NCBI GenBank assembly: GCA_013112725.1
Contig: JABFFZ010000014.1
Location: 23,321 to 87,320, forward strand
Reading direction: 5' to 3'
DNA: 64,000 nucleotides
Origin: Chloroflexota bacterium
GTDB lineage: Bacteria; Chloroflexota; Anaerolineae; Promineifilales; Promineifilaceae
Every line of letters starts with the position of its first letter. Positions within the stretch are counted from its first letter, which is position 1. This document shows, piece by piece, positions 6,639 through 25,246 of the stretch. A program made the translations under genes and the position numbers. The notes under the pieces are model-generated. The model did no database searches and was not told where the DNA came from. It was given only the letters and a program-made list of their open reading frames with translations.

Positions 6639-6815
6639 AAGCTTGGTTGGTTAAGGGATTTGAGAAAACACACCTCCCCCAAACTGGCACAAAAGAAACG
6701 CGACTGGAACAACCGCTGATCAAGCCCAGGGCACTGTTCCCTCTCTCAAATCTCTAACAGTGCCCGTTCCTTTGTGAACGGGCAGGCCACCTGAAATCAG
6801 GTGGCCTGTTTTTTT
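6639..6815 (+). ncRNA. candidate structured non-coding RNA, family unknown
   Basis: A ~175-nt transcript is predicted from the promoter at 6604-6632 to the terminator at 6784-6815. It contains several strong helices that compete for the same bases. An 11-bp pairing joins 6655-6665 with 6744-6754. A 10-bp hairpin joins 6729-6738 with 6756-6765 and places the 6744-6754 strand in its loop. An 8-bp hairpin joins 6762-6769 with 6776-6783. The first two could coexist as a pseudoknot or act as alternatives, while the second and third exclude each other. The next gene downstream is on the other strand, so this is not an ordinary 5' leader. I do not recognise 6S RNA, SRP RNA, tmRNA or RNase P RNA in it. 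Confidence 0.55.
6784..6815 (+). terminator. intrinsic terminator
   Basis: A perfect 10-bp stem (AGGCCACCTG with CAGGTGGCCT) has a 4-base loop and is followed by G and seven T. It is among the strongest terminators in the window and ends the predicted RNA or the plsC transcript. Confidence 0.88.
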
Positions 6816-6842
6816 GTAACGCGATTTGGCAAATCGCGTTAC
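6816..6842. repeat. dispersed palindrome, GTAACGCGATTT type
   Basis: A 12-bp perfect inverted repeat, GTAACGCGATTT, with a 3-base centre. It overlaps the stop codon of the gene on the minus strand. A close relative (GCGCGATTTGG with AAAATCGCGTTAC) lies at about 62345-62368 at the end of the TetR-like gene, so this looks like a small dispersed palindromic repeat. Confidence 0.7.
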
Positions 6843-10855: not shown

Positions 10856-12100
10856 CTAATTCCTAATTCCTAATTCTCTTGGGTCGGTGATGACCCCCGT
10901 CACGGCCGTCGCCGCCGCCACACTTGCACTCGCCAGATAAATTTGTGACGATGGATGCCCCATCCGCCCCTTAAAATTGCGGTTGCCGGTGGAGAGGCAT
11001 ACATCCCCTTCGCCCAACACGCCCTGGTGCCGCCCCATGCAAGGGCCACAGCCCGGCGTCGTCAGTATGGCTCCCGCTTCCAGCAGAACGTTCAGCGTAT
11101 CATCGGCAATGGCTCGCTGCAATTCCACCCGGCTGGCGGGGCTGAGGATCAGGCGCGTCCCTGGAGCTAACTGCCGCCCTTTTAGAATATCCGCCGCGTC
11201 GCGCATGTCTTCGTAACGGCCGTTGGTACAAGTCCCTAAAAAGACCACATCCACCTTTGTCCCCGCCACCGCGCCCACATCCACCACATCATCTACCGCG
11301 TGGGGGATCGCCACCTGCGGTTCTAATTCATCCAGATTAATCGTGACGGTCTGGGTATAGGTGGCGTCGGGATCCACAAACAACCAATCTGGCACGTCCC
11401 AATCCACCGCCGCTACACCTGTTGGCGGGAAGATGCCCGCCTTCGCGCCCAACTCAATGGCCATGCTGCTGATGGTCTGGCGGCCCGGCAAGGACAGCCA
11501 TTCCAGCCCATGATACTCAATTGCCCTGTACGTGGCCCCGGCAATGGTTAATTCGCGGCCCAATTTAAGGGCGAAATCTTTGGCGTCCACACCGGGGCGG
11601 AAACGGCCGTGTGCCACCACCCGCAGCGTCTCCGGCGCCCGCAACCACGTTTTGCCCGTCGCCCACACCAGGGCCACATCGGTAGACCCCATGCCCGTGC
11701 CAAACGCCCCCACCGCGCCATAACTGGTAGAGTGTGAATCCGACCCCACCACTATCATGCCGGGCCGGGCAATCCCTTCCTCCACCAACACCTGATGGCA
11801 AATGCCCCGCCCCACTTCAAACAGGCGAATCCCCTGCTCCCCGGCAAAGCGGCGCACCAGGTTTTGGTTATCGGCCACACCCACCGTAGAAGCCGGGGCC
11901 ACATGATCCAGCACCAGCACCACCTGTTCCGGGTTGTGGACACGGCTCACGCCCAGCCGCTCCTGCATCACCTTGATGATGCCCGGCGACAGCGAATCAT
12001 GCCCCATGGCTACATCCGGTTCCACCACCACCAGATCGCCCGGCTGCACCCGTCGCCCCGCTTTGTGCGATAAAATCTGCTCCGTTAACGTCTGTCCCAC
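10856..12100 (-). CDS. homoaconitase large subunit (aconitase family)
   Basis: A 414-residue catalytic subunit binding a [4Fe-4S] cluster. Cluster cysteines are visible in FLGTCTNGRYEDM and in GCGPCMGRHQG, and the GSDSHSTSYGAVGAFGTGMGS loop is typical. The start is GTG at 12100, four bases after a very strong ribosome site (AAAGGAGG). With the small subunit it isomerises homocitrate to homoisocitrate. LeuC function cannot be excluded from sequence, but no leucine genes are nearby and all other lysine genes are. A long inverted repeat lies just upstream at 12133-12181. Confidence 0.87.
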   Translation of the reverse strand: MGQTLTEQILSHKAGRRVQPGDLVVVEPDVAMGHDSLSPGIIKVMQERLGVSRVHNPEQVVLVLDHVAPASTVGVADNQNLVRRFAGEQGIRLFEVGRGICHQVLVEEGIARPGMIVVGSDSHSTSYGAVGAFGTGMGSTDVALVWATGKTWLRAPETLRVVAHGRFRPGVDAKDFALKLGRELTIAGATYRAIEYHGLEWLSLPGRQTISSMAIELGAKAGIFPPTGVAAVDWDVPDWLFVDPDATYTQTVTINLDELEPQVAIPHAVDDVVDVGAVAGTKVDVVFLGTCTNGRYEDMRDAADILKGRQLAPGTRLILSPASRVELQRAIADDTLNVLLEAGAILTTPGCGPCMGRHQGVLGEGDVCLSTGNRNFKGRMGHPSSQIYLASASVAAATAVTGVITDPRELGIRN

Positions 12101-12186: not shown

Positions 12187-12750
12187 TTATTCGCGTCCTA
12201 CTTTCAAAACGGCATCTCCCGTTTGTACCACTCCTGGCTCAACCACTTTCACATACAGGCCACGCAAACGCAAAGCTCTGCCCACATCGGAATTGGCGAA
12301 TTTGACGGCGTCCATGCCGAAGCGGTCGGTGAATTTGGCGCAGCCGGTGTGGGGCACGGCCGTCACTTCCACTACGGCCGTGCCCAACTGTAACTGCTGA
12401 CCAACCGGCAGGTTCTCCACGCTCAAATCCATGTCTACAATAAACTGGTCGCCGGCCAGCGGCCACCGTTCCCGGTCATCATTCGCGGCCAGGTTCAGGA
12501 AACGGCCGTTCATTAGCGTGAGCTGCATCTCCGGGTGCGCCGATCCGTCGGCCGTCCGTTTGCTGCCCCGCGCCCGCCAATTGTCCCCTTCCAGCCCATT
12601 GGCAACCGTCAATTCGCCCTGCGCCAACACCCGCCGCTCCCCATCGGCCGGCCGGGCCACAATCATCTGCACCACGCCGCCATCGGCCGGCGACTCCTGC
12701 ACCTGCGCCAACCCTGCTTCCAATTCTGCCATATTCAAATGTTTGGTCAT
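12187..12750 (-). CDS. MOSC domain protein
   Basis: A 187-residue cytoplasmic protein. The C-terminal half carries the MOSC pattern: a conserved cysteine in TGCAKFTDRFG, then RLRGLYVKVVEPG and QTGD. MOSC domains act in sulfur transfer and in molybdenum-cofactor-dependent reactions. In stand-alone proteins of this size the substrate is usually unknown. It lies on the lysine strand but has no obvious role in that pathway and may be a passenger. Confidence 0.85.
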   Translation of the reverse strand: MTKHLNMAELEAGLAQVQESPADGGVVQMIVARPADGERRVLAQGELTVANGLEGDNWRARGSKRTADGSAHPEMQLTLMNGRFLNLAANDDRERWPLAGDQFIVDMDLSVENLPVGQQLQLGTAVVEVTAVPHTGCAKFTDRFGMDAVKFANSDVGRALRLRGLYVKVVEPGVVQTGDAVLKVGRE

Positions 12751-13060: not shown

Positions 13061-14197
13061 CTAATCTCCCACACTATTTGCGGCATCATACAGCAGCGCA
13101 TCCACATCATCCAGCGTCAAACGGCCGTGATCGGCCATCGTTTTGATTTCACTCGTCAAATACTTCAGTTGCTCATCATCCAGACATAGCCCCAACTGCT
13201 CCGCCCGCCCTTTCACCGCGTTCCAGCCCGTCAGCCGGTGCGCCACGTGAATATAGCGCGTCAGACCAAAATCCTCCGGCCGCAAAATCTCATACGTCGC
13301 CGGATTATTCAGCACCGCTTTGGCATGAATGCCCGCTTTGTGCGTAAAACTGGCAAAGCCCGTGATGTAATTGTTGAAGGGAATGTCCACCCGTACCAGC
13401 CGCGCCACCAGGCTGTCCAAATTACGAATCAGCGGCAGGTGATACTTCTTCACCAGCGCCGGGTCGGTGGCATAGAGACGGGCAATAAAACCGCCCAACG
13501 ACGTAATGCCGTTCCGCTCGCCAATACCCAACACACTGGTATCAATGTGCGTGGCCCCCGCTTCCAGCGCCGCGTACGCATTGGCAATGGCGCAGCCGGA
13601 GTCGTTGTGCCCGTGAAACTCAATATCACAGGTCAACTCCTGGCGCAGGCGGGCCACCAGGTCGTAAATCTGGCGCGGTGTGCCCACGCCCACTGTATCG
13701 GCGATACCTACCCGATGCACACCCAATGCACACACCGCCCGGTAAACGCGCACAATATCTTCCACGTCACTCCGCAGGCTGTCCTCGGTGCTAAAGCGCG
13801 TTTCCACGCCCTGGCTGAGCAGATAGGCCACCACTTCCTGGGCTATATCCAGAATCTGGTCAATGGTACGGCCGTGACTAAATTCCCGCAGATACGACGA
13901 CGTACCAATAACCACATCCACCCCGCCCACACCTGTATCCACTGCTTTTTTGGCATCTTCCAGATTACAGCGCGTGTGCGTCAAGATTTTGGCATTCAGC
14001 CCCAGCCGGGCAATGGTCACACAGTCGTTATAACTCTCCGGTGAGGCCAGCGGCGAGGTCAGTTCCAGATACTCCACGCCAAACGTATCCAGCAGCGTGG
14101 CAATCTGAATCTTCTCGGCCGTGCTGAAAAAGGCATTCACAAACTGCTCCCCTTCCCGCAGCGTAGACTCAATAATGGCAAACTTTTCCAGACTCAT
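13061..14197 (-). CDS. homocitrate synthase
   Basis: Condenses acetyl-CoA and 2-oxoglutarate, the first step of the alpha-aminoadipate pathway. [11 protein letters not shown] at residue ~7 is the family start (Arg/Asp-type metal and substrate site). [12 protein letters not shown] and the [18 protein letters not shown] motif supply the metal-binding His pair. The ATG at 14197 has the ribosome site AAGGAAG; a longer frame to 14248 is less likely. At ~378 residues it matches Thermus-type homocitrate synthases, which lack the C-terminal regulatory domain of isopropylmalate synthase. It was probably once contiguous with lysJ; two toxin-antitoxin modules now lie between. Confidence 0.92.
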
Positions 14198-14250
14198 CAC
14201 AACTTCCTTCGCAATTGACACGCCTTCCTTCTCATCGCTATACTCCACCT

Positions 14251-14516
14251 ATGAAGTTTGAGTGGGACAGACAGAAACGGCTGGCAAATATCCGAAAACA
14301 TCACATTGATTTCGCCCACGTGATTGAGCTTTTCTATCAGCCCACTTCATTGTAGAAGACGAGCGTTTTGATTATGAAGATGAACGATTTTGGGCGATTG
14401 GTTTCTTTCGAGACCAACCTACCATTGTCGTTCACACCTATGTTGGAGATGATGTCATTCGCATCATCTCCGCCCGTAAAGCGACGAGATATGAACAACA
14501 AAAATACTTCTCTTGA
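14251..14516 (+). pseudogene. BrnT-family toxin gene with a single-base deletion
   Basis: BrnT toxins are small RNase-like proteins. The frame starts MKFEWDRQKRLANIRKH and stops after QPTSL. One base out of register the conserved remainder continues: VEDERFDYEDERFWAIG, then the RIISARKATRYEQQKY ending of the family. Restoring one C in the CCC run near 14342 gives QPHFIVEDER, the expected family sequence, and one ~89-residue protein. So one base is missing, by mutation or sequencing error. The end overlaps the next gene by 26 bp, the usual toxin-antitoxin arrangement. Confidence 0.85.
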
Positions 14517-14844
14517 ATCCCAAACCAACTGGGAGCGGCTGGAAGCAATGGACGATGAGGACATTGACCTATCAGACATCCCCGAACTCACAGAAGAAGA
14601 TTTCAAACGGGCCAAACCGGCAGTCCAATTTTTCAAGGAACGTGGGATTAAGTTTGACCCCAACGAACCACTGGTCGTGACTGAATACCAGGAAGATGGC
14701 ACGGCCGTGACATATGAACTGCCGCCACCTAAGCCCTTGCTTGTTACCCTCGATCCTGATTTACGCCGGTATTTCCCAGATTCCGAATCGGTCAACCGTA
14801 CCTTACGTTCGCTCATTGCCCTCATTCCCAAAGCACGTGTTTGA
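14491..14844 (+). CDS. antitoxin of BrnT-type module (BrnA-like)
   Basis: 117 residues, acidic N-terminal half with IDLSDIPELTEEDFKRAKP, a phrase common in BrnA-like antitoxins. The C-terminal RRYFPDSESVNRTLRSLIALIP probably forms the DNA-binding or dimer part. The same C-terminal block recurs almost exactly in the second antitoxin at 15152-15418. Its toxin (14251-14516) is frameshifted, so this antitoxin may now be orphaned unless it also binds the second toxin. Confidence 0.75.
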   Translation: MNNKNTSLESQTNWERLEAMDDEDIDLSDIPELTEEDFKRAKPAVQFFKERGIKFDPNEPLVVTEYQEDGTAVTYELPPPKPLLVTLDPDLRRYFPDSESVNRTLRSLIALIPKARV

Positions 14845-14889: not shown

Positions 14890-15168
14890 ATGCCGCAATT
14901 TGAGTGGTATGAGAAAAAGGCAAAACCAAATGAACGGAAACATGGCGTCTCATTTGATAAAGCTATAACTGTTTTCAAAGACCCCTTCTCTATCACTATT
15001 ATTGACCCTTATCATTCAGATGATGAAACTCGTTTTATTGACATCGGTTTTTCTGACCAGGGATGCCTGGTGGTAGTGATTTATACTGAACGAGATGACC
15101 ATACCCGGATAATTAGCAGCCGTTTAGCTAACAAGGCTGAACAAGAAACCTATGAACGAGACGAATAA
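14890..15168 (+). CDS. BrnT-family toxin (second, intact module)
   Basis: 92 residues with the complete BrnT pattern: FEWYEKKAKPNERKHGVSF, FKDPFS, then ETRFIDIGFSDQG and RIISSRLANKAEQETYE. BrnT is a ribonuclease-like toxin of type II systems that is neutralised and autorepressed together with its antitoxin. It overlaps the next gene by 17 bp. Unlike the first module at 14251 it has no visible defect. Confidence 0.88.
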   Translation: MPQFEWYEKKAKPNERKHGVSFDKAITVFKDPFSITIIDPYHSDDETRFIDIGFSDQGCLVVVIYTERDDHTRIISSRLANKAEQETYERDE

Positions 15169-15418
15169 TAATTTGACAGATATGCAACCAGAATATGATT
15201 TTTCTGGTGGTGTGCGTGGCAAACATTTCCGAGAAATGCGCCAGGGTTATCGCGTCACCATTCATAACGAAGATGGCTCTACTACCATCAAAGAATATGA
15301 GCCGGACGAGGGCTGGATTGCCCTCGATCCTGACGTGCGCCGATATTTCCCAGACTCCGAATCGGTCAACCGCACCTTACGTTCGCTCATTGCCCTCATT
15401 CCTGAACATCACTCCTGA
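15152..15418 (+). CDS. antitoxin paired with second BrnT
   Basis: 88 residues. The N-terminal part (EYDFSGGVRGKHFREMRQGY) is typical of antitoxins that follow BrnT-like toxins. The C-terminal RRYFPDSESVNRTLRSLIALIP is shared with the antitoxin at 14491-14844, and the DNA is also highly similar there (about 14756-14826 versus 15330-15400). The shared block suggests duplication or gene conversion between the modules. Confidence 0.78.
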   Translation: MNETNNNLTDMQPEYDFSGGVRGKHFREMRQGYRVTIHNEDGSTTIKEYEPDEGWIALDPDVRRYFPDSESVNRTLRSLIALIPEHHS

Positions 15419-15574: not shown

Positions 15575-16735
15575 TCACATCTCCACCAATACCGCTGCAA
15601 TCGCCTCCACTACCTGATCAATCTCCTCTTTTGTAATCACCAGTGGCGGCGTCAGGCGGAGGACTGTAGAACCGGCCGTCAGTGCCAAAACACCGCGTTC
15701 CATTAAGCCCCGCACCACCTCCATCGCCCTGATTTTCAATTCCACCCCAACTAGCAGACCCAAACCACGCACCTCCCGAATAAGGGGTGAAGGAATGGCC
15801 CATAATTGTTCCATGAAGTACGCGCCCCGTTCGGCCGCACGGCCGTGCAACCCCTCCGCCTCCATCACAGCCAACACCGCATTCGCCGCCGCACAGGCCA
15901 GCGGATTGCCGCCAAAGGTGGAGCCATGCACCCCTGGCGTCAGATTTTGCACCCGCCCGCCAATGCCCACCGCGCCGATCGGCAGCCCCCCGGCCATCGC
16001 TTTGCCCAGACAGATCAGGTCAGGCGTAATGCCCACCTGTTCGCAGGCAAAGAACGTTCCGATACGGCCGTAACCCGTTTGCACCTCATCCACAATCAAC
16101 AGCGCGCCCCGTTCGTCACACAGCCGCCGCGCCGCCTGGAAAAAGGCCGGGTCCGCCAGGCGCACGCCCCCCTCCCCCTGCACAATCTCCAGGATGACGG
16201 CGGCCGTTTGTTCGGACACGGCCGTGTCCAACCGGGCCACATTACCAAAGGGCACATGTGAAAAACCAGGCACCAGCGGTTGGAACGGCTCCCGGTAATC
16301 CGATTTATGGGTAGCGGAGAGGGCGCCAAAGGTACGGCCGTGAAACCCCCGCATCATCGCCACCACCTCCGCCCGCCCCGTACTCAGCCGGGCAAACTTC
16401 AACGCCGCTTCCACCGCCTCCGTGCCCGAATTGCATAGAAAGACGCGGTTCAAATCACCAGGCAAAATGGCCGCCAGCCGGGACATAAACCGCGCCCGCT
16501 CGTCGTTGTAAAACATCTCCTGGCAGGTGATGAGCGTTTGCGCCTGCCGGGTGATGGCGTCTACCACCGCCGGATGGCAGTGCCCCACGTTGGCCACAGC
16601 CGTTCCCGCCGCACAATCAATATAGACACGGCCGTCCCCGTCCCAAACCATCGCCCCCCGCCCCCGCACAATAGCGACCTCTCGCTTGCCGTACACGCCG
16701 CTGGTGAATTGGTTTTCAAGTGTGAATGTGTCCAT
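15575..16735 (-). CDS. lysJ: [LysW]-aminoadipate semialdehyde aminotransferase
   Basis: A 386-residue class III PLP aminotransferase that transaminates LysW-bound aminoadipate semialdehyde to LysW-lysine. The PLP lysine is in LGKAMAGGLPIGAVG, the preceding VDEVQTGYGRIGTFFACE holds the conserved Asp/Gln, and HGSTFGGNPLACAAA closes the site. By sequence it overlaps with acetylornithine aminotransferase (ArgD); neighbouring LysW, LysX, LysY and LysZ make LysJ the better name, though dual use in arginine synthesis is possible. A palindromic junction repeat separates it from lysZ by 44 bp. Confidence 0.88.
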   Translation of the reverse strand: MDTFTLENQFTSGVYGKREVAIVRGRGAMVWDGDGRVYIDCAAGTAVANVGHCHPAVVDAITRQAQTLITCQEMFYNDERARFMSRLAAILPGDLNRVFLCNSGTEAVEAALKFARLSTGRAEVVAMMRGFHGRTFGALSATHKSDYREPFQPLVPGFSHVPFGNVARLDTAVSEQTAAVILEIVQGEGGVRLADPAFFQAARRLCDERGALLIVDEVQTGYGRIGTFFACEQVGITPDLICLGKAMAGGLPIGAVGIGGRVQNLTPGVHGSTFGGNPLACAAANAVLAVMEAEGLHGRAAERGAYFMEQLWAIPSPLIREVRGLGLLVGVELKIRAMEVVRGLMERGVLALTAGSTVLRLTPPLVITKEEIDQVVEAIAAVLVEM

Positions 16736-16740
16736 GTTTT

Positions 16741-16794
16741 TATGTAATTGAGTAATTGGGTAATTGGGTAATTACCCAATTACCCAATTACCGT
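16741..16794. repeat. palindromic junction repeat (TAATTGGG word)
   Basis: TAATTGRG units repeated three times run straight into their reverse complement (ATTACCCAATTACCC), forming a near-perfect long palindrome between lysZ and lysJ. The right arm extends into the last codons of lysZ. Related words occur at 20081-20105, 20201-20226, 56448-56488 and 59020-59090. Confidence 0.85.
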
Positions 16795-17586
16795 CCCCAC
16801 CCCATCCAACGCCCTTAACACCGGTCGCTCCCCCCGCGCATCGCCCAGGATGACGTGGCGGACGCCACCTTGCAGCGCCTCCTGTGCGCCCAGCAATTTG
16901 ATGCGCATCCGTCCCTGGGCATGGCTTTGGGCGACAGACTCGATCTCGTCCGCCGCCAGTTGCCGAATGAGCGAACTTTCGTCGGGAAAGTGGCGCAGCA
17001 GGCCAGGCACGTTGGAGAGAATGAGCAGTTCCGTTGCGCCCAGGGCTACGGCCGTGGCCGCCGCCGCCCGGTCGCCATCCACATTCATCGCCTCGCCGTC
17101 ATAGCTGATGGCCGGGGGGGTCAGCACGGGTACAAAGCCGTTATGCAGCAGCCCGGTTAGCAGCGCTGTGTTCACCTGCTCCACCCGCCCCGTCAGATTA
17201 TCGCGGATGAGGCGGGTACGGCCGTTTTCCACCACTTTGATCACCGCTTTGCGCGATCCCTGCCAGAGACGGCCGTCCAGCCCACTCAGCCCCACCGCAT
17301 TCACCCCGCGCCGCTGCAACCGCTCCACAATGTTTTTGTTCACCTGCCCACAATACACCATCTCAAAAATCTCCAGCGTCGCCCGGTCGGTCAGGCGGCT
17401 GGTGTAACCGGATGGCGAGGTGACAAACTGCGGCGGATGGCCCAGCGCCAGCGCCACCTGATTGGTCAGGTGCGAACCGCCATGCACCAGCACCACCCGC
17501 TGCCCCTCGCGCACCAACTGCGCCACATCCCCACATACCGCCTCATAATCAATCCCCTCGCTGCCGCCAATTTTAATCACAATCAT
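16780..17586 (-). CDS. lysZ: [LysW]-aminoadipate kinase
   Basis: A 268-residue amino-acid-kinase-fold enzyme that phosphorylates the side-chain carboxylate of LysW-bound alpha-aminoadipate. The N-terminal VIKIGGSEG and VLVHGGSH are the phosphate-binding glycine loops of the NAGK family, and NVDGDRAAAATAVALGA and LLILSNVPGLL complete the ATP site. It differs from ordinary ArgB by its position next to lysX and lysY. The C-terminal codons run into the palindromic repeat at 16741-16794. Confidence 0.9.
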   Translation of the reverse strand: MIVIKIGGSEGIDYEAVCGDVAQLVREGQRVVLVHGGSHLTNQVALALGHPPQFVTSPSGYTSRLTDRATLEIFEMVYCGQVNKNIVERLQRRGVNAVGLSGLDGRLWQGSRKAVIKVVENGRTRLIRDNLTGRVEQVNTALLTGLLHNGFVPVLTPPAISYDGEAMNVDGDRAAAATAVALGATELLILSNVPGLLRHFPDESSLIRQLAADEIESVAQSHAQGRMRIKLLGAQEALQGGVRHVILGDARGERPVLRALDGVGTVIG

Positions 17587-17637: not shown

Positions 17638-18660
17638 TCAAACCGGGTGTAACCCGGTAAACTCCAGCCCCATCCGCTCCGGCCAACCCATCATCACATT
17701 CAGGCATTGCACGGCCGTGCCCGCCGCCCCCTTCATCAAATTATCCAGCGCACTGAGCACCACCAACCGCCGGCTCTGTTCATCACGGGCAAAACCAATG
17801 TCACACCAGTTGGTACCCGCCAGGATTTTTGGCTCCGGGTAACGGTAAATGCCTTTGCGCTCATGCACCAGACGGATAAACGGCTCGCCGCCATACGCTG
17901 CCCGGTATAACTGCCAGACCGCTTTCTCGTCCACGTCCCGATTCAAAAAAACGTGTGCCGTACACAACACACCCCGCACCAACTCGACGGCCGTGACCGA
18001 AAAATGCAGTTCCATCGCCCCCAACGCCTGCAACACCTCTGCCTGATGCCGATGCCCGGTGGGAGCAAAGGATCGCACCGCCCCGCTCCGCTCCGGGTGA
18101 TGGCTGGCGGCGCTGAAACTGTTCCCCCCCTCCGACGACCCCACTTTCAGGTCAACCACCGCCCGCTCAATCCAACCCGCCTGGACCAGGGGAGCCAGCG
18201 CCAGATTCACGGCCGTGGCGTTACACCCCACCCCACTCACATACCGCGCCCCCCGCAGCCGCTCCCGGTGCAGTTCCGGCAGCCCATACACAAAATCTGC
18301 CAGCCAGCCCGGATTGGGGTGCGACTGCCCGTACCACCGTTCATACACCGCCGCGTCCCGCAGCCGGAAATCGGCCGACAGGTCAATCACCCGTTCGGCA
18401 AGGGCGGCAAACTGTTCGATCTGGGCGGCGGCACGGCCGTATGGCAGCGCCAGAAACAGCACATCACACGGTTGCAACTCCTCCACCGCGCAAAACTGTA
18501 ACCGGGTAATCCCGCGCAGGTTAGGATGAACCCCATGCACATACCGCCCCGCGTGTTGCTGCGACGTCACCTGCGCCACCCTCACCTGCGGATGCGCCAA
18601 CAGCAGCCGCAGTAATTCCCCCCCTGCATAGCCGGAACCACCGACGATACTTGCTCTCAT
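17638..18660 (-). CDS. lysY: [LysW]-aminoadipyl phosphate reductase
   Basis: A 340-residue ArgC/LysY-type NADPH-dependent reductase producing LysW-aminoadipate semialdehyde. The Rossmann loop GGSGYAGGELLRLLL is at residue ~7, the catalytic cysteine lies in SGVGCNATAVNLAL (about residue 146), and VGSSEGGNSFSAASHHPER is the substrate loop with the family histidines. It is directly upstream of lysZ with a 51-bp gap filled by a TTCCTAA repeat. Dual function in arginine synthesis cannot be excluded. Confidence 0.92.
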   Translation of the reverse strand: MRASIVGGSGYAGGELLRLLLAHPQVRVAQVTSQQHAGRYVHGVHPNLRGITRLQFCAVEELQPCDVLFLALPYGRAAAQIEQFAALAERVIDLSADFRLRDAAVYERWYGQSHPNPGWLADFVYGLPELHRERLRGARYVSGVGCNATAVNLALAPLVQAGWIERAVVDLKVGSSEGGNSFSAASHHPERSGAVRSFAPTGHRHQAEVLQALGAMELHFSVTAVELVRGVLCTAHVFLNRDVDEKAVWQLYRAAYGGEPFIRLVHERKGIYRYPEPKILAGTNWCDIGFARDEQSRRLVVLSALDNLMKGAAGTAVQCLNVMMGWPERMGLEFTGLHPV

Positions 18661-18724: not shown

Positions 18725-19582
18725 TCACCGCTCACTGCTAACTGTCCACTTCATCAAAAAATCCACCACCCGCCCCGGAATATCCACCCCCGTGGGGGCG
18801 ATGCTGTTGCGGAACTCCATGGTGTGGTTGACCTCGTTCACCAGCAAACGGCCATCGGCCGTTTCCAGCAGGTCAATGGCGACGATGCCGCCGCCCACGG
18901 CCGTTGCCGCCGCCCGTGAGAGTGCATCAATTTCTGGTGTCACCGGGCAATTTTCCGCCCGCCCGCCCCGCGCCGTGTTCGTAATCCAGTGCGCGGAATG
19001 GCGAGTAATGGCGCAAATCGTCTCATCGCCGACGACAAAGCTGCGGATGTCCCGCCCCGGTTTGTCCACGTACTCCTGAATGTAAAAAACGGAATGTTGG
19101 TATGACCCCAACGTGGCTTTGTGTTCCAGGATCGCCTCGGCCGCTTCCCGGTCATTGATTTTCGCCAGCAGCCGTCCCCAGGAACCGACTGCCGGTTTCA
19201 ACACCACCGGGTAACCCATCTGCTCGATGGCGTCCAGCGCACTTTCCGGCGAAAAGGCGATCTGGGTGCGCGGCGAGGGCACACCGGCTCGCGCCAGTGC
19301 CAGCGTTGTCTCCAATTTACTGCCACAGGCCTGTACCACCTGGGCCGTGTTCACGCAGGGAATCCCCCACGCCCCCCAGATTTGCAGGCAGGCCAGCGCG
19401 GCCGTATGGCTGACGCAGCGGTCGAGGATGACGTCAAAGCGCCTCCATGCCGCGGGGCAGGTCAGGTCGAGTACGGCCGTGCGCACATCCACCAACTCAT
19501 AATCCACCCCCCGCCGCTCCATCGCTTCAATGAGCAGCTTTTCCTCCACGCGGATTCGGGAATACAAGATACCTATTTTCAT
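18725..19582 (-). CDS. lysX: [LysW]-alpha-aminoadipate ligase
   Basis: A 285-residue ATP-grasp ligase that attaches alpha-aminoadipate through its amino group to the C-terminal glutamate of LysW. The ATP-grasp elements [18 protein letters not shown] and [14 protein letters not shown] are clear, and metal residues lie in [14 protein letters not shown], the phrase typical of LysX in Thermus and Sulfolobus. It is followed at 64 bp by lysY and preceded at 79 bp by lysW. A GTTATCG tandem repeat lies just upstream. Confidence 0.95.
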
Positions 19583-19584
19583 GT

Positions 19585-19661
19585 TGGTAATCGGTTATCG
19601 GTTATCGGTTATCGGTTGTCGGCTGCTTAACGATTACCGTTCACCGATTACCGATTACCCT
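19585..19661. repeat. junction repeat between lysW and lysX
   Basis: CGGTTATCGGTTATCGGTTA at 19590-19617 is followed by complementary words (CCGATTACCGATTACC) at 19630-19660, so the transcript could fold here. It sits between two genes that should be expressed together. Confidence 0.75.
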
Positions 19662-19835
19662 CTATTCCCCCCAATCCTCAGCCACTTCCGGGGCCAGTTC
19701 CAATTGCAGCGGGTGTGTGCTGATCACTTCCAGTTCCACGCCGCAGTCGGGACATTCCAGGATTTCGCCGGGCAGCACGGCCGTGCCCACCGCTACCCCA
19801 CCACCACATTCGGGACATTCAAAATTGTTCATCAT
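19662..19835 (-). CDS. lysW: amino-group carrier protein LysW
   Basis: A 57-residue acidic protein with a zinc ribbon (CPECGGG near residue 7, CPDCG near residue 30) and the C-terminal EDWGE that defines LysW. Its terminal glutamate carries the aminoadipate and later intermediates, protecting the amino group and presenting the substrate to LysX, LysZ, LysY and LysJ. Two adjacent ATGs (19835, 19832) follow the ribosome site AGGAG; the second has the better spacing. It is the first structural gene after the tandem attenuators, so it is probably the one most directly controlled. Confidence 0.95.
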   Translation of the reverse strand: MMNNFECPECGGGVAVGTAVLPGEILECPDCGVELEVISTHPLQLELAPEVAEDWGE

Positions 19836-19856
19836 TCAACTCCTAAAAATCGTTTC

Positions 19857-19912
19857 GTTTGTAGTAGGCGATTCATCGCCTTCTGAACGGCGATAAATCG
19901 CCTACTACGAAC
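19857..19912. repeat. palindrome in the lysW 5' region (GTAGTAGGCGATT type)
   Basis: An inverted repeat of ~24 bp per arm with an 8-base centre, built on GTAGTAGGCGATT. A shorter relative (GTAGTAGGTGATTCATCACC) lies at 45092-45118 before another gene. It falls between the second attenuator terminator and lysW and would form a hairpin in the mRNA. There is no T-run, so it is not an intrinsic terminator. Confidence 0.75.
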
Positions 19913-19920
19913 ATGGTCGG

Positions 19921-19960
19921 AAAATAAAAAGCGGACTTACCACCGTTCTGGTAAGCCCGC
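19921..19960 (-). terminator. attenuator 1 terminator
   Basis: The 12-bp stem GCGGGCTTACCA / TGGTAAGTCCGC with a 6-base loop is followed by a T-rich tail of ten bases. It lies 86 bp before the lysW start on the same strand, i.e. inside the leader of the lysine operon. Confidence 0.88.
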
Positions 19961-19987
19961 CTGATACACCCTTTTACCTTTTCGCTC

Positions 19988-20071
19988 TCAGGGCGTAGCG
20001 CAACACACCAGAACCGGCGGCGGTTTGGTCTTCTTGCCCTTCTTGAATTGCAGCGAAAAGTTTGTGTTCAT
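19988..20071 (-). CDS. lysine leader peptide 1
   Basis: A 27-residue open frame, MNTNFSLQF then KKGKKTK then PPPVLVCCATP. Five of seven consecutive residues are lysine (four AAG, one AAA), followed by three CCG proline codons that form part of the antiterminator strand. No ribosome site is visible, and no convincing promoter lies directly upstream, where MITE copy C is inserted. The lysine run placed before competing hairpins is the hallmark of a ribosome-mediated attenuator. The triple proline could itself slow translation. Confidence 0.82.
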   Translation of the reverse strand: MNTNFSLQFKKGKKTKPPPVLVCCATP

Positions 20072-20105
20072 AACAGGTAATTGAGTAATTGGGTAATTAC
20101 TCAGT

Positions 20106-20200
20106 GTAAGCGTTCAGACTTGACAAGTTTTTTACCAGAGGCAGTTGCCGCAATTCAGGTGTAAAAACTTGTCAAGTCTCCAGAGGAACTGAACGGTTAC
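20106..20200. mobile_element. IS66-like MITE, copy C (95 bp) with perfect target duplication
   Basis: Starts GTAAGCGTTCAGACTTGACA and ends in the complement of GTAACCGTTCAGTTCC. The octamer TACTCAGT lies directly on both sides (20098-20105 and 20201-20208), a perfect 8-bp target duplication, so the boundaries are firm. Removing the element and one octamer restores a palindromic TAATTGGG-type junction repeat. The insertion separates the two lysine attenuators. Confidence 0.94.
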
Positions 20201-20230
20201 TACTCAGTTACCTAATTACCCAATTACAAA

Positions 20231-20261
20231 TAAAAAAGCCCCGCCGGTTATCTGGCGGGGC
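20231..20261 (-). terminator. attenuator 2 terminator
   Basis: An 8-bp all-G/C stem with an 8-base loop (AGATAACC) followed by six T on the minus strand. The loop and the end of the 5' arm are exactly the bases that pair with the antiterminator strand. Confidence 0.9.
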
Positions 20262-20306
20262 CTTGCTGTGCAAACGAATGTCGGGAACGCACAACGTCCA
20301 GATAAC

Positions 20307-20372
20307 CTACCGGTTTCTGCTGCCCTTCTTGCTCTTCTTGGAGACAATGATTGGTGTGTTTGCGTTCATCAT
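20307..20372 (-). CDS. lysine leader peptide 2
   Basis: A 21-residue open frame, MMNANTPIIVS then KKSKK then GSRNR and TAG. All four lysines use AAG. The first ATG lies only seven bases after the -10 box of the promoter at 20380-20407, so the mRNA is probably leaderless and begins at or within about two bases of the start codon. The peptide itself probably has no function other than to sense charged lysyl-tRNA through ribosome position. Confidence 0.85.
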   Translation of the reverse strand: MMNANTPIIVSKKSKKGSRNR

Positions 20373-20379
20373 GCGTCAA

Positions 20380-20407
20380 AGTTTAGCAGGGGATAGGGGA
20401 TTGTCAA
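20380..20407 (-). promoter_or_regulatory. predicted promoter of the lysine operon leader
   Basis: A perfect TTGACA (minus strand 20407-20402) is followed after 16 bp by TAAACT (20385-20380). The predicted start point coincides with the ATG of leader peptide 2. The -35 box overlaps the end of an ACGGCCGT palindrome (CGGCCGTTGACA). Confidence 0.75.
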
Positions 20408-20752
20408 CGGCCGTACCTCCCTTTCTGTCAAAATAACCAACCCCACCCGCCGGCCGTTGGTCATAGTTCACAAACAATGCCCCTTGCCGGTCATCTTGAC
20501 ACTTTCTAAACGCCACTGCCGCCAACCTGTACCCCACCTTGACCTCAGGCGCGGTACAGTTTGGGAAATCGTGATGCGTGATGCGTGACCGGGAAATCCT
20601 CACACGTCACACATTGCATGTCACGCCGGACTCCGCGAGATCCTATTAAGCCAAAATAAGCGGATGTGTCAAGAAAATGGCAATGTCCCATAGGCTCGGC
20701 GTCCTATGGGCTGGAGCAAATTGTTCAGGTAACGGCCGTACTAATCCGGGTC
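20408..20752. other. gene-free stretch between the lysine leader and the surface-protein promoter
   Basis: No coding frame looks real here. The stretch holds GTGATGCGT-type tandem words with their complement (about 20569-20636), an 8-bp hairpin CCCATAGG / CCTATGGG (20687-20710) without a T-run, and two ACGGCCGT copies. It separates two divergent promoters (20407 leftward, 20753 rightward). Confidence 0.7.
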
Positions 20753-20780
20753 TTAACATAAACGAAAAAAGTTGTATAAT
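20753..20780 (+). promoter_or_regulatory. predicted promoter of the surface-protein gene
   Basis: TTAACA (20753-20758) and a perfect TATAAT (20775-20780) are separated by 16 bp. Transcription would start near 20787, giving a ~75-base leader before the ATG at 20863. Confidence 0.75.
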
Positions 20781-20862
20781 AGACACACTTTGCATAATGT
20801 TGCTTCATTTGAACTGTCGGCGGCGGTAAACGGGCCGGCGGTTGATCAATCGGGAGGCTATG

Positions 20863-22919: not shown

Positions 22920-24404
22920 TTAGCTGCCCAACCACATGGCGGCCAGCCGCCAGATTTGGGCGACGAAGAAGGTGACGGTAAAGCCTAAGGCCAGGGGGAG
23001 CAGAGCGGACACGGCCGTCCACTTTTTGCTGCCCGTCTCCTTGTAAATGGTGTAAATGGTGGTGCTGCACGGGTTGTGAATGAGCGAAAAGAGCATCAGG
23101 TTCACGGCCGTGAGCAATGTCCAGCCGCCCGCCGTTAGCAGACTTTTCACTGCCAACGGCTCATCTAATTCAAACATTACCCCCGCCCCTGCACCCACAT
23201 CACCAGTTACGCCCAACATCATCACCGTTAGCATGAGGATGGTGGGAATCACAATCTCGTTGGCCGGGATGGCCACCACATACGCCAGCAAAATGACGCC
23301 ATTCAGGCCAAACAAAATACCTGCCGGATTCAGGAAATTGACCATATACTCGGCAATGCTAACGCCCTGAACGGTGACATTACCAATCAGCCAGATAACG
23401 GCCCCGGCCGGCAAGGCAAACACCACCGCCCGCCACAACACATACAGCGTGCGGTCAATGAGCGAGGTGTAAATGGTTTGCAGCACCCGCGGCGGACGGT
23501 ACGGTGGCAGTTCCAGGCTAAAGGTGGACAGTTCACCGCGCAGCACCGTGCGCGACAGGCTCCAGGAGACGACAAAGGTCAGCAACACACCTAACACGGC
23601 AATACCCACCACCGCCAACGCCGAGACCAGCCCGGAGATGTACGCCGGCGCCAACGCGCCCACAAACAGGCTGGCAATGAGGATTTGCGTGGGCCAACGG
23701 CCGTTGCACAATGCAAAATTATTGGTGATGATGGCAATCAGCCGTTCACGCGGGCTGTCAATGACCCGTGTGGCAATCACCCCCGCCGCATTGCAGCCAA
23801 AACCCATCATCATACTCAACGCCTGTTTGCCATGCGCCCCCGACTTTTTGAAGGCATTATCCAGGTTAAAGGCTACCCGCGGCAGGTAGCCAAAATCCTC
23901 CAGCAGCGTAAACAGCGGAAAGAAAATGGCCATCGGCGGCAGCATCACGCTCACTACCCAGGCTGTCGCCAGGTACATGCCGTCAATCAGCAGCCCACTC
24001 AACCACCAGGGCAGACCAATGGCGGCGGCAATCTGGTGCAGCAATGGCACCATCGTATCAATCAGGATGGACGCCAAAAATTGCGACGGATAATTGGCGC
24101 CGATAATCGTCAACCAGAAAACGATGGCCAACATGGCAATCATCATTGGGAAACCCCAGATGCGGCTGGTGACAATGCGGTCAATGGTGCGGTCTAGGTC
24201 AAAACGCGGCTTTTCGCCGGGGCGGGTGACGGCGCGGTCGGCCAATTGCGCCGCGTTGGTGTAAATATCTTCCATCAGATGTTCATGGAAGCCCTGCCCA
24301 ATTTGCCAGCGCAATGACTCCGCCATTTGCAAAACGGCATCATGTGGATCAGATGTAGGTTGGGGGGCGATGGCGCCCCGGCCATTCAACGGATAGGTGG
24401 TCAT
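22920..24404 (-). CDS. FeoB membrane (Gate) subunit of a split ferrous iron transporter
   Basis: 494 residues. An N-terminal helical linker of ~75 residues precedes about ten membrane helices with two Gate (nucleoside-recognition-like) domains. FeoB cysteine and core motifs are seen in [25 protein letters not shown] and [20 protein letters not shown]. The G domain is a separate gene upstream, overlapping by 4 bp (ATGA), so the normal single FeoB chain is split here. The two proteins must associate at the membrane to import Fe(II). Confidence 0.9.
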
Positions 24405-25246
24405 GCCAGTACCTCCAATTCGATGCGATTATTCTGTTGCGGCGCGGGCGCGTTCAGGTGGCCTAATTCACCATTGCGCACAGCGCGGATAATGCTCTGG
24501 TCGCCATCCAGCAGCCGCAGCGCCACCCAGCGGGCATTGGGCAGGCCAGGAAACGCGGCCTGCAACTGCTGCACCAACTGGTTGATCGCCTTCTGCACGG
24601 CTGAGGATTCACTTTTGATGCGGTATGGTTTGCACACGGTCTGGCCCGTGGCCACTTCATGGACGGCTTGCAGTAGTTCGGGCAGGCCACGGCCGTAACG
24701 CGCCGCCGTGGGCACGACCGGAATGCCCAAATCCCGCGCCAGCCGCCGGTCATCTACTACCAGGCCATGCCGTTTGGCCTCGTCCATCAGGTTCAGGCAG
24801 GCCACCGCCCGGTCGGTAATTTCCAACACTTGCAACGCCAGATTCAGGTTGCGTTCCAGCCGGGTGGCATCCAGCACAATGATGGTCACGTCCGGCTGGC
24901 CGAAGAGAATGAAATCCCGCGCCACTTCTTCATCCAGACTGGTGGAGAGCAGCGAATAGGTGCCGGGCAAATCTACGAGTTTGTAGCGAGAGTCAGCGTA
25001 ACTAAAACCACCTTCGGCGCGGGTGACGGTTTTACCGGGCCAGTTGCCGGTATGCTGGCGCAGCCCGGTGAGGGCATTAAAAACGGTACTTTTACCGGTA
25101 TTTGGATTCCCGGCCAACGCCACCACATAATCCCAATCACTCATATCAATGCCCAGTTTTTTCAAATTACCGGCATTGTGAACGGGGCAGGTGACGCAGC
25201 CATCGGGAGTGTGTTGTATTTGTGTTTGCATGGTTCCTCTTTGCAT
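24401..25246 (-). CDS. FeoB G-domain protein (split FeoB, cytoplasmic subunit)
   Basis: 281 residues. All G motifs are present: G1 [10 protein letters not shown]2 region around [10 protein letters not shown]3 DLPGT and G4 NLMD. The C-terminal helical part resembles the FeoB GDI domain ([12 protein letters not shown]). An N-terminal C-x-x-C (CVTCP) may bind metal. It ends by overlapping the membrane-subunit gene by 4 bp. The start could be the second Met (MQTQIQ). Together with the FeoA-like gene upstream it forms a three-gene ferrous iron operon. Confidence 0.92.

Follow-up and report, generated by a model that had tools for sequence, protein, structure and literature searches.

Two short open reading frames rich in lysine codons lie on the minus strand upstream of lysW in a Chloroflexota genome, each followed by a candidate terminator. 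Why should one lysine operon carry two such leaders, and could both act as gates on the same transcript? The initial annotation of the window (the whole stretch of DNA analysed, 64,000 nucleotides) had proposed two minus-strand leaders containing KKSKK and KKGKKTK, each followed by a terminator and both 5' of lysW, and all of these elements were found in the places it gave. Judged from the sequence, it is very probable that they make up two Lys attenuator-like modules in series, and that the operon would be reached only if ribosomes stall on lysine codons in both. Ribosome-mediated attenuation of this kind would be classical and already known; what we rate as new is the putative arrangement of two gates for the same signal in series.

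The leader region and the lysine operon

The leader region begins with a promoter-like site, P1 (20380..20407, minus strand, as for every feature below unless a plus is given). It consists of TTGACA (20407-20402) and TAAACT (20385-20380) separated by 16 nt, with 10 of 12 matches to the consensus. The last base of the -10 element lies 7 nt 5' of the leader 1 ATG (20372-20370), and the position relative to the ATG is similar in relatives. Leader 1 is predicted to be leaderless, or nearly so. A TTGACA promoter starting the RNA at the first leader ATG had been claimed before; the site is there, a similar one was found at 17 of the 19 strict tandem loci, and the RNA probably starts at the ATG or a few bases from it.

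Leader peptide 1, MMNANTPIIVSKKSKKGSRNR, contains KKSKK and is encoded at 20307..20372; its Lys runs are kept in relatives. It is followed by terminator 1 (20228..20264), predicted from sequence to be of the intrinsic type, with a T tract. Leader peptide 2, MNTNFSLQFKKGKKTKPPPVLVCCATP, contains KKGKKTK, is encoded at 19988..20071 and has no clear Shine-Dalgarno sequence. The predicted intrinsic-type terminator 2, also with a T tract, occupies 19921..19962, and its 13-bp stem is conserved with compensatory changes.

Two palindromes, both dispersed repeats, interrupt this layout. The one in the spacer between the modules (20116..20179) has 86 genome matches to one arm and is not conserved in relatives, and the one between terminator 2 and lysW (19857..19912) has 144 matches to one arm. 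By eye, the inter-module palindromes of L002, L003 and L007 differ from the window's, and the palindrome before lysW in L002 and L003 belongs to the window's repeat family. The leader spacers seem to tolerate insertions.

The first structural gene is lysW (19662..19835; TIGR01206, 65.7 bits against a cut-off of 53.2), followed by lysX (18725..19582; TIGR02144, 344.6 bits against 275.6), a lysY/argC-type reductase (17638..18660; TIGR01850, above cut-off), lysZ, the [LysW]-aminoadipate kinase (16780..17586; NF010659, above cut-off), and a lysJ-type aminotransferase (15575..16735), whose best match, NF042418, is below its cut-off and whose match to TIGR00707 is above its own. Homocitrate synthase (13061..14248; TIGR02146) and a homoaconitase-family large subunit (10856..12100; TIGR01343 and TIGR02086) complete the set, all above cut-off. 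Genes of the same pathway thus lie 3' of the leaders, with lysW, lysX, lysZ and homocitrate synthase above the NCBIfam cut-offs. This gene set presumably serves the aminoadipate pathway, with lysine carried on LysW.

Other reading frames lie within the cluster. A MOSC-domain ORF (12187-12750, minus) lies between the homocitrate synthase and homoaconitase genes, and a BrnT-type toxin ORF (14890-15168, plus; Pfam PF04365) lies on the opposite strand. Two ORFs adjoining the BrnT ORF (15152-15418 and 14368-14844, both plus) share a near-identical C-terminal stretch, have no Pfam match and may be antitoxin copies.

Conservation, pairing and folding of the two modules

Relatives were collected with lysX as a handle, 30 and 80 loci followed by 40 further stretches, nearly all the sequences analysed being MAGs. 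De-duplication of the lysX upstream regions reduced 110 to 102 and 40 to 35, leaving 137. Our strict scan asked for a leader of 10-45 aa with an ATG start and at least 4 Lys in 8 residues, and for an intrinsic-type terminator 5-150 nt past the last Lys. Lys modules were found in 37 of the 137 regions, 18 single and 19 tandem. The same scan of the 137 regions for each of the other 19 amino acids gave at most 5 regions (Arg) and no tandems; the Lys scan gave none in the 137 reverse strands and none in 2740 dinucleotide shuffles. The tandem array is far beyond chance. The other 100 loci have no strict module, several of them having relaxed forms. By a crude test, 65 of the 100 may be operon-internal, as they have a long open frame that ends within 150 nt; the other 35 look free.

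By eye, both modules are present at the window's own locus and at all seven close loci. In the window's family (f1; 20 genomes, LysX E <1e-100), two modules were counted at 14 loci, 13 of them strict and one, L125, with a second terminator accepted on relaxed criteria; five loci have one module (L061, which is also L120, and L121-L124) and one has none. G003, of the same genus and with no LysX match, has leader 1, terminator 1 and a covariance model match for module 2. Across several genera both modules keep Lys runs, antiterminator and terminator, and the leader peptides diverge outside the Lys runs. The distance from the last Lys codon to the terminator is 46-86 nt, with a median of 60, and falls within 46-71 nt in 55 of 56 modules. 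In the scan set the starts of leader 2 of L006 and L013 and of leader 1 of L009 are probably too far upstream; for the promoter and folding analyses those of L006 and L009 were reset, and that of L013 was left inside terminator 1.

What could the two modules form? In module 1, segment 1 (CAGAAACC, 20312..20319) is predicted to pair with segment 2 if no ribosome is on it, a hairpin that scores -9.1 against a shuffled mean of -5.0 (p 0.04) and also appears in the fold. Segment 2 (GGTTATCTGG, 20298..20307), the predicted 5' strand of the antiterminator, begins with a G that is the last base of the leader stop codon. It is the perfect 10-bp complement of segment 3 (CCAGATAACC, 20246..20255), the 3' strand, which lies in the tip and loop of terminator 1. 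The antiterminator takes up the loop of the terminator but reaches into the stem by just its two uppermost base pairs, leaving most of the 5' arm out.

In module 2, segment 1 (ACCAAACCG, 20021..20029) is predicted to pair with 20016-20007, and in the fold makes a hairpin of 9 bp interrupted by one bulge. Across 17 loci the consensus retains a 4-bp form of this hairpin (20024-20021 with 20010-20007), and the 9-base core of the window's hairpin was not significant in a shuffle test. The antiterminator would be formed by segment 2 (GTTCTGGTG, 20006..20014) as 5' strand and its complement, segment 3 (TACCAGAAC, 19945..19953), as 3' strand, the helix being extended by further pairs past a bulge. 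Each module thus has three pairing segments, the first lying 3' of the Lys codons, and a second terminator arm; this predicted plan, in which the 1:2 pairing has mixed support, is that of the trp and his attenuators. Against shuffled sequences the window's pairing taken alone is marginal for module 1 (p 0.06) and reaches p 0.015 for module 2; it is the set of relatives that makes the predicted antiterminator pairing secure.

To compare partners across the set, the 5' region and the terminator arm with its loop were paired in all combinations among 56 modules. Own pairs had a mean of -20.4 kcal/mol and cross pairs -15.9. The own-pair mean was reached by none of 10,000 permutations, and again by none of 10,000 on the 44 modules without near-duplicates, the own partner having a mean rank of 0.23 and 0.20 (random, 0.5). 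By this measure the predicted antiterminator co-varies in relatives. Singly, 41 of the 56 antiterminators reach p<=0.05 against a shuffled strand; 15 do not, module 1 of the window among them at p 0.06. Tested one at a time, the segment 1:2 hairpins of 18 of the 56 modules are significant.

Alignments were also folded with RNAalifold. For 19 distant modules, drawn from the single-call set (15 of 18) and from the first modules (4 of 19), it chose the segment 2:3 helix, UCUGG with CCAGA, both sides having changed in 4 of 7 pairs. For module 2, aligned from 17 loci, its choice was the 13-bp terminator with the 4-bp 1:2 hairpin, 6 of 17 pairs being compensated. Alignments A1 and A2 left out L131 and L154 (17 of the 19 tandem loci were used), and A3 left out L054, L134 and L156. 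In A2, the MAFFT alignment of module 1, the antiterminator of L051 and L066 is misplaced, and no conclusion is based on A2; a column scan found the antiterminator as 7 columns in A1 and only 4 in A2.

Folding in silico with a ribosome in place gave opposite answers for nascent and full-length RNA. When a ribosome sits on the last Lys codon of the nascent RNA, all 56 modules form the antiterminator, and 52 of 56 retain it when half of the terminator 3' arm has been made. With the ribosome at the stop codon it forms in 9 of 56, falling to 2 with half the 3' arm, and without a ribosome in 35, falling to 18. Of the 56 real modules, 46 show the full switching pattern, compared with 74 of 560 when the 5' strands are shuffled; the antiterminator core in these folds was the best complement, a choice that favours the antiterminator, and the shuffled control was treated alike. 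At equilibrium, with the full-length module and a stalled ribosome, the antiterminator exceeds 0.5 in only 3 of 56 modules and the terminator wins, as it does in the window's own two. Equilibrium folding thus failed as support for the switch and counts as evidence against it. The antiterminator is predicted to exclude the terminator in nascent RNA, not in the full module at equilibrium. As the terminator wins at equilibrium, the switch must be kinetic, decided during transcription, which is usual for attenuators.

Several expectations of the initial annotation can be judged from these results. It had each leader holding a strand complementary to its terminator, perfect over 10 bp in module 1 and bulged in module 2, and both helices are there, with the refinement that module 1 uses the loop and top two stem pairs. 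Its expectation that Lys runs and antiterminator pairing would be conserved in relatives was borne out, and the pairing co-varies. The folding with ribosome constraints that it called for supports the switch in nascent RNA (52 of 56 modules against 2 of 56) and does not support it at equilibrium.

Distribution and age of the modules

Profiles of module 1 and module 2 were built from 13 f1 loci and scored on the other loci. The first modules of L045, L046, L047, L051 and L125 fit the module 1 profile better, and the module 2 profile is the better fit for the second modules of L045, L046, L047, L050, L051, L060, L066 and L125. L054 is contrary, the first modules of L050, L054, L060 and L066 are unscored, and L131 and L154 cannot be placed. 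This pattern suggests that both modules predate the split from Anaerolineales-type loci. Single modules fit the module 1 profile at L044, L061 and L121-L124, and weakly at L049 and L063; those of L027, L048 and L136 fit the module 2 profile better. For the f1 single-module loci, the scores suggest loss of module 2.

A LysX tree was made with 74 of the 137 rows, 29 labelled tandem, 11 single and 34 none. The last label covers 32 of the 35 free loci together with L062 and L064, some with weak Lys leaders by eye. Ten tandem labels follow relaxed criteria judged by eye (L125, L047, L050, L054, L060, L024, L065, L134, L156 and L157), L125 also entering the f1 count. The tandem label needs at least 7 changes on the tree, 4 of them forced by well-supported branches, and 23 when labels are shuffled. 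It is clustered on the tree, by an unrooted count that does not tell gains from losses.

A covariance model of module 2 found matches in 36 of 396 genomes of the class. Among 29 newly fetched model loci, 24 have lysW, lysX or homocitrate synthase, five of the 29 (L165-L169, counted among the 24) being the model's own training set. L164, L172 and L184 have Lys leaders on stretches without any of these genes. L190 and L192 are false matches with no Lys leader, and at L185 lysW is present and no Lys leader was called at the match. New tandem arrangements were found at L170, L184 and L188, and single Lys modules before homocitrate synthase or lysW-homocitrate synthase operons at L173, L175, L176, L178-L180, L182, L183 and L187. 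By eye, MAGs labelled Phycisphaerales (L053, L117) have a Lys-rich leader and a hairpin before lysW, and weaker Lys-leader candidates occur at L062 (Blastocatellia), L064 and L068; none of these passes the strict scan. In the window's own genome the model found the two modules and three weaker matches (E 0.09, 0.7 and 3). Two of the three have no Lys leader near them and were rejected. The third (window 6716-6819, plus) has a terminator-like hairpin and an ORF whose Lys residues are scattered, no more than 3 in 8, and was not taken as a module either.

Is doubling a habit of the lineage? At hisG, a single His-rich leader followed by a terminator was found in 11 of 14 relatives' loci (L200, L202-L207 and L209-L212), and never two. 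These include the window's own genome (L203; G000 contig 110). The L200 leader starts with GTG. The hisG leaders are likely to be His attenuators in Chloroflexota. Twelve trpE loci gave one weak match, and 16 leuA loci gave no leader module, where leuA may not be first in its operon. As the his leaders are always single, tandem attenuators are not supported as a general habit of the lineage.

Probable serial order, rival readings and known systems

If both modules work, does one transcript pass through both? Leader 1 is preceded at 17 of the 19 strict tandem loci by a promoter-like site that matches the consensus at 10 or more of 12 positions, 7-10 nt from the ATG in 16 of the 17; the site of L154 matches 12 of 12 but is 27 nt away, that of L046 matches 7 of 12 and L131 has none. 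In the 55 nt 5' of leader 2, no site with at least 9 of 12 matches was found in the 19 tandem loci, the best having 8. A TTGACA in the spacer palindrome was rejected as a leader 2 promoter, being part of the dispersed repeat and not conserved. At six loci (L154, L066, L051, L006, L046 and L005) only 14-25 nt separate terminator 1 from the leader 2 ATG, leaving no room for a promoter. Module 2 would most simply be reached by read-through of terminator 1. With a promoter-like site only at leader 1 and spacers this short, the two gates are likely to be in series. The serial arrangement claimed at the outset agrees with this, as a promoter-like site stands only before leader 1 and none of at least 9/12 before leader 2 in the 19 loci. 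The predicted leader RNA thus has one promoter-like site, two leader ORFs and two modules. A Shine-Dalgarno-like word was found before leader 2 in only one of the 19 loci by a simple 4-base word test, which makes translation of leader 2 uncertain.

We picture one transcript from P1, starting at or a few bases from the leader 1 ATG. A ribosome stalled for want of charged tRNA-Lys would cover segment 1 and leave segment 2 free to pair with segment 3 before the terminator is complete, and transcription would continue. A ribosome that reaches the stop codon would cover segment 2, or have passed it, and the terminator would form. Module 2 would then repeat the choice of module 1. The chance of passing both gates would be one probability multiplied by the other, so that the basal level would fall and the logarithmic sensitivities would add up. 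It is simple arithmetic that read-through multiplies, and logarithmic sensitivity adds, across serial gates; that the cell makes use of it we can only infer. The steep response to charged lysyl-tRNA put forward in the initial annotation is likewise no more than a possible outcome.

A stronger form of this picture is possible, though we put it at somewhat less than even. The device would be a natural two-stage lysine amplifier in strict series, fixed early in the Anaerolineae and retained from then on, its output the product of two read-through probabilities. The first stage would be leaderless and the second internally initiated, giving two thresholds, and the leaderless 5' end would let ribosome and polymerase start together. 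The AAG-biased Lys runs would tie both stages to one tRNA-Lys isoacceptor. At the 37 loci, AAG and AAA stand in a ratio of 215:61 among the Lys codons of the leaders and of 120:179 in lysX (odds ratio 5.3, p 2e-20). According to selective charging theory, in the passages cited, the codon bias of a leader is connected with the isoacceptor that is most sensitive to starvation (PMC1183508). The AAG bias could be explained just as simply by avoidance of slippery A runs.

Perhaps only one module works as a lysine gate here, the other being a relic or a back-up of small effect. The five f1 loci with a single module (L061, or L120, and L121-L124), like L044, are matched better by the module 1 profile, so loss of module 2 is possible, and leader 2 has no clear Shine-Dalgarno sequence. 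Both modules keep their Lys runs, antiterminator and terminator across several genera, however, and the profiles point to an origin of both before the split from Anaerolineales-type loci; we consider a single working gate unlikely. The two leaders might instead answer to different signals, leader 1 sensing charged tRNA-Lys and leader 2 the capacity for translation initiation or some other state. Their initiation contexts do differ, and the mgtCBR leader, as described in the parts of the report cited, sets a precedent for two signals (PMC3641672). Leader 2 keeps its Lys runs about as well as leader 1, though, and no other amino acid is enriched in the scan, which makes a second signal quite improbable.

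The hairpins could also be plain terminators or insulators, intrinsic terminators being common between genes, and the small ORFs accidental or functional Lys-rich microproteins. Against these readings, the enrichment is specific to Lys, the spacing is narrow, the antiterminator co-varies, and the peptides diverge outside the Lys runs. The chance controls make these readings very unlikely. Lysine riboswitches and Lys T-boxes are both known to control lysine genes, and either might control this operon. Rfam gave no family at gathering score in the whole window, the lysine riboswitch (L-box) and T-box included, and a permissive scan of 19600-20800 found neither, so that such control is hardly conceivable. 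The best permissive match, AaHKsRNA41 (20105-20264, plus; E 0.0034, 24.4 bits against a gathering score of 97), was judged to be chance. Two serial lysine gates remain the reading we prefer.

How does such an arrangement compare with known systems? By sequence, a leader ORF with a Lys run, an intrinsic terminator, an alternative antiterminator and genes of the same pathway are all present, as in attenuators of the trp and his type. Tsubouchi et al. in 2005 reportedly described ribosome-mediated attenuation by a leader peptide in the aminoadipate lysine cluster of Thermus thermophilus, a lysine leader said to be single and in Deinococcota. Classical trp and his attenuators, in the passages cited, share with this locus a leader ORF bearing regulatory codons, an antiterminator and a terminator that exclude each other, and a gene of the same pathway downstream (PMC3641672, PMC1183508). 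Here, in contrast, two complete modules stand in series for one amino acid, the first leader is predicted to be leaderless, and the phylum is another.

The earlier statement that no tandem arrangement was known does not hold as it stood. The Salmonella mgtCBR leader mRNA, like the one predicted here, has two short ORFs and two attenuators (PMC3641672). In the account cited its ORFs respond to ATP and proline and act independently and additively, and its stem-loops are said not to resemble intrinsic terminators (PMC3641672). In the present locus, by codon content, both leaders have codons for the same amino acid and both predicted terminators are of the intrinsic type. The mefA/msrD macrolide-resistance operon also has two attenuators, called a double-lock in the passage cited, but it senses a drug and its second attenuator regulates msrD alone (PMC10314930). 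Two pT181 attenuators have likewise been put in series, reportedly with an improved dynamic range; these are engineered antisense-RNA attenuators, described without lysine leader peptides in the section cited (PMC3753616). Among the matches listed from the open-licence literature, outside which subscription papers lie, neither tandem leader attenuators serving one amino acid nor a lysine leader in Chloroflexota was reported. The authors of a 2010 survey stated in the part cited that, to their knowledge, before their own Firmicutes cases no leader-peptide system had been shown outside Proteobacteria and Actinobacteria, the atypical ermC apart (PMC2965389).

The locus would thus bring ribosome-mediated attenuation to the Chloroflexota, by sequence, in the form of a conserved device with two stages for a single amino acid. 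Provided that both stages work, it would offer a natural test of what serial gating gains in lower basal level and higher sensitivity. The sensitivity of a single attenuator has been treated by theory (PMC1183508) and serial gating with engineered parts (PMC3753616), as the passages cited describe. The modules may serve as compact natural parts, and related genomes provide a clean contrast, his being single and lysine double.

Elsewhere in the window, FeoB is encoded by two overlapping minus-strand ORFs, one for the GTPase part (24401-25246) and one for the membrane part (22920-24404), which is either a natural split or a frameshift.
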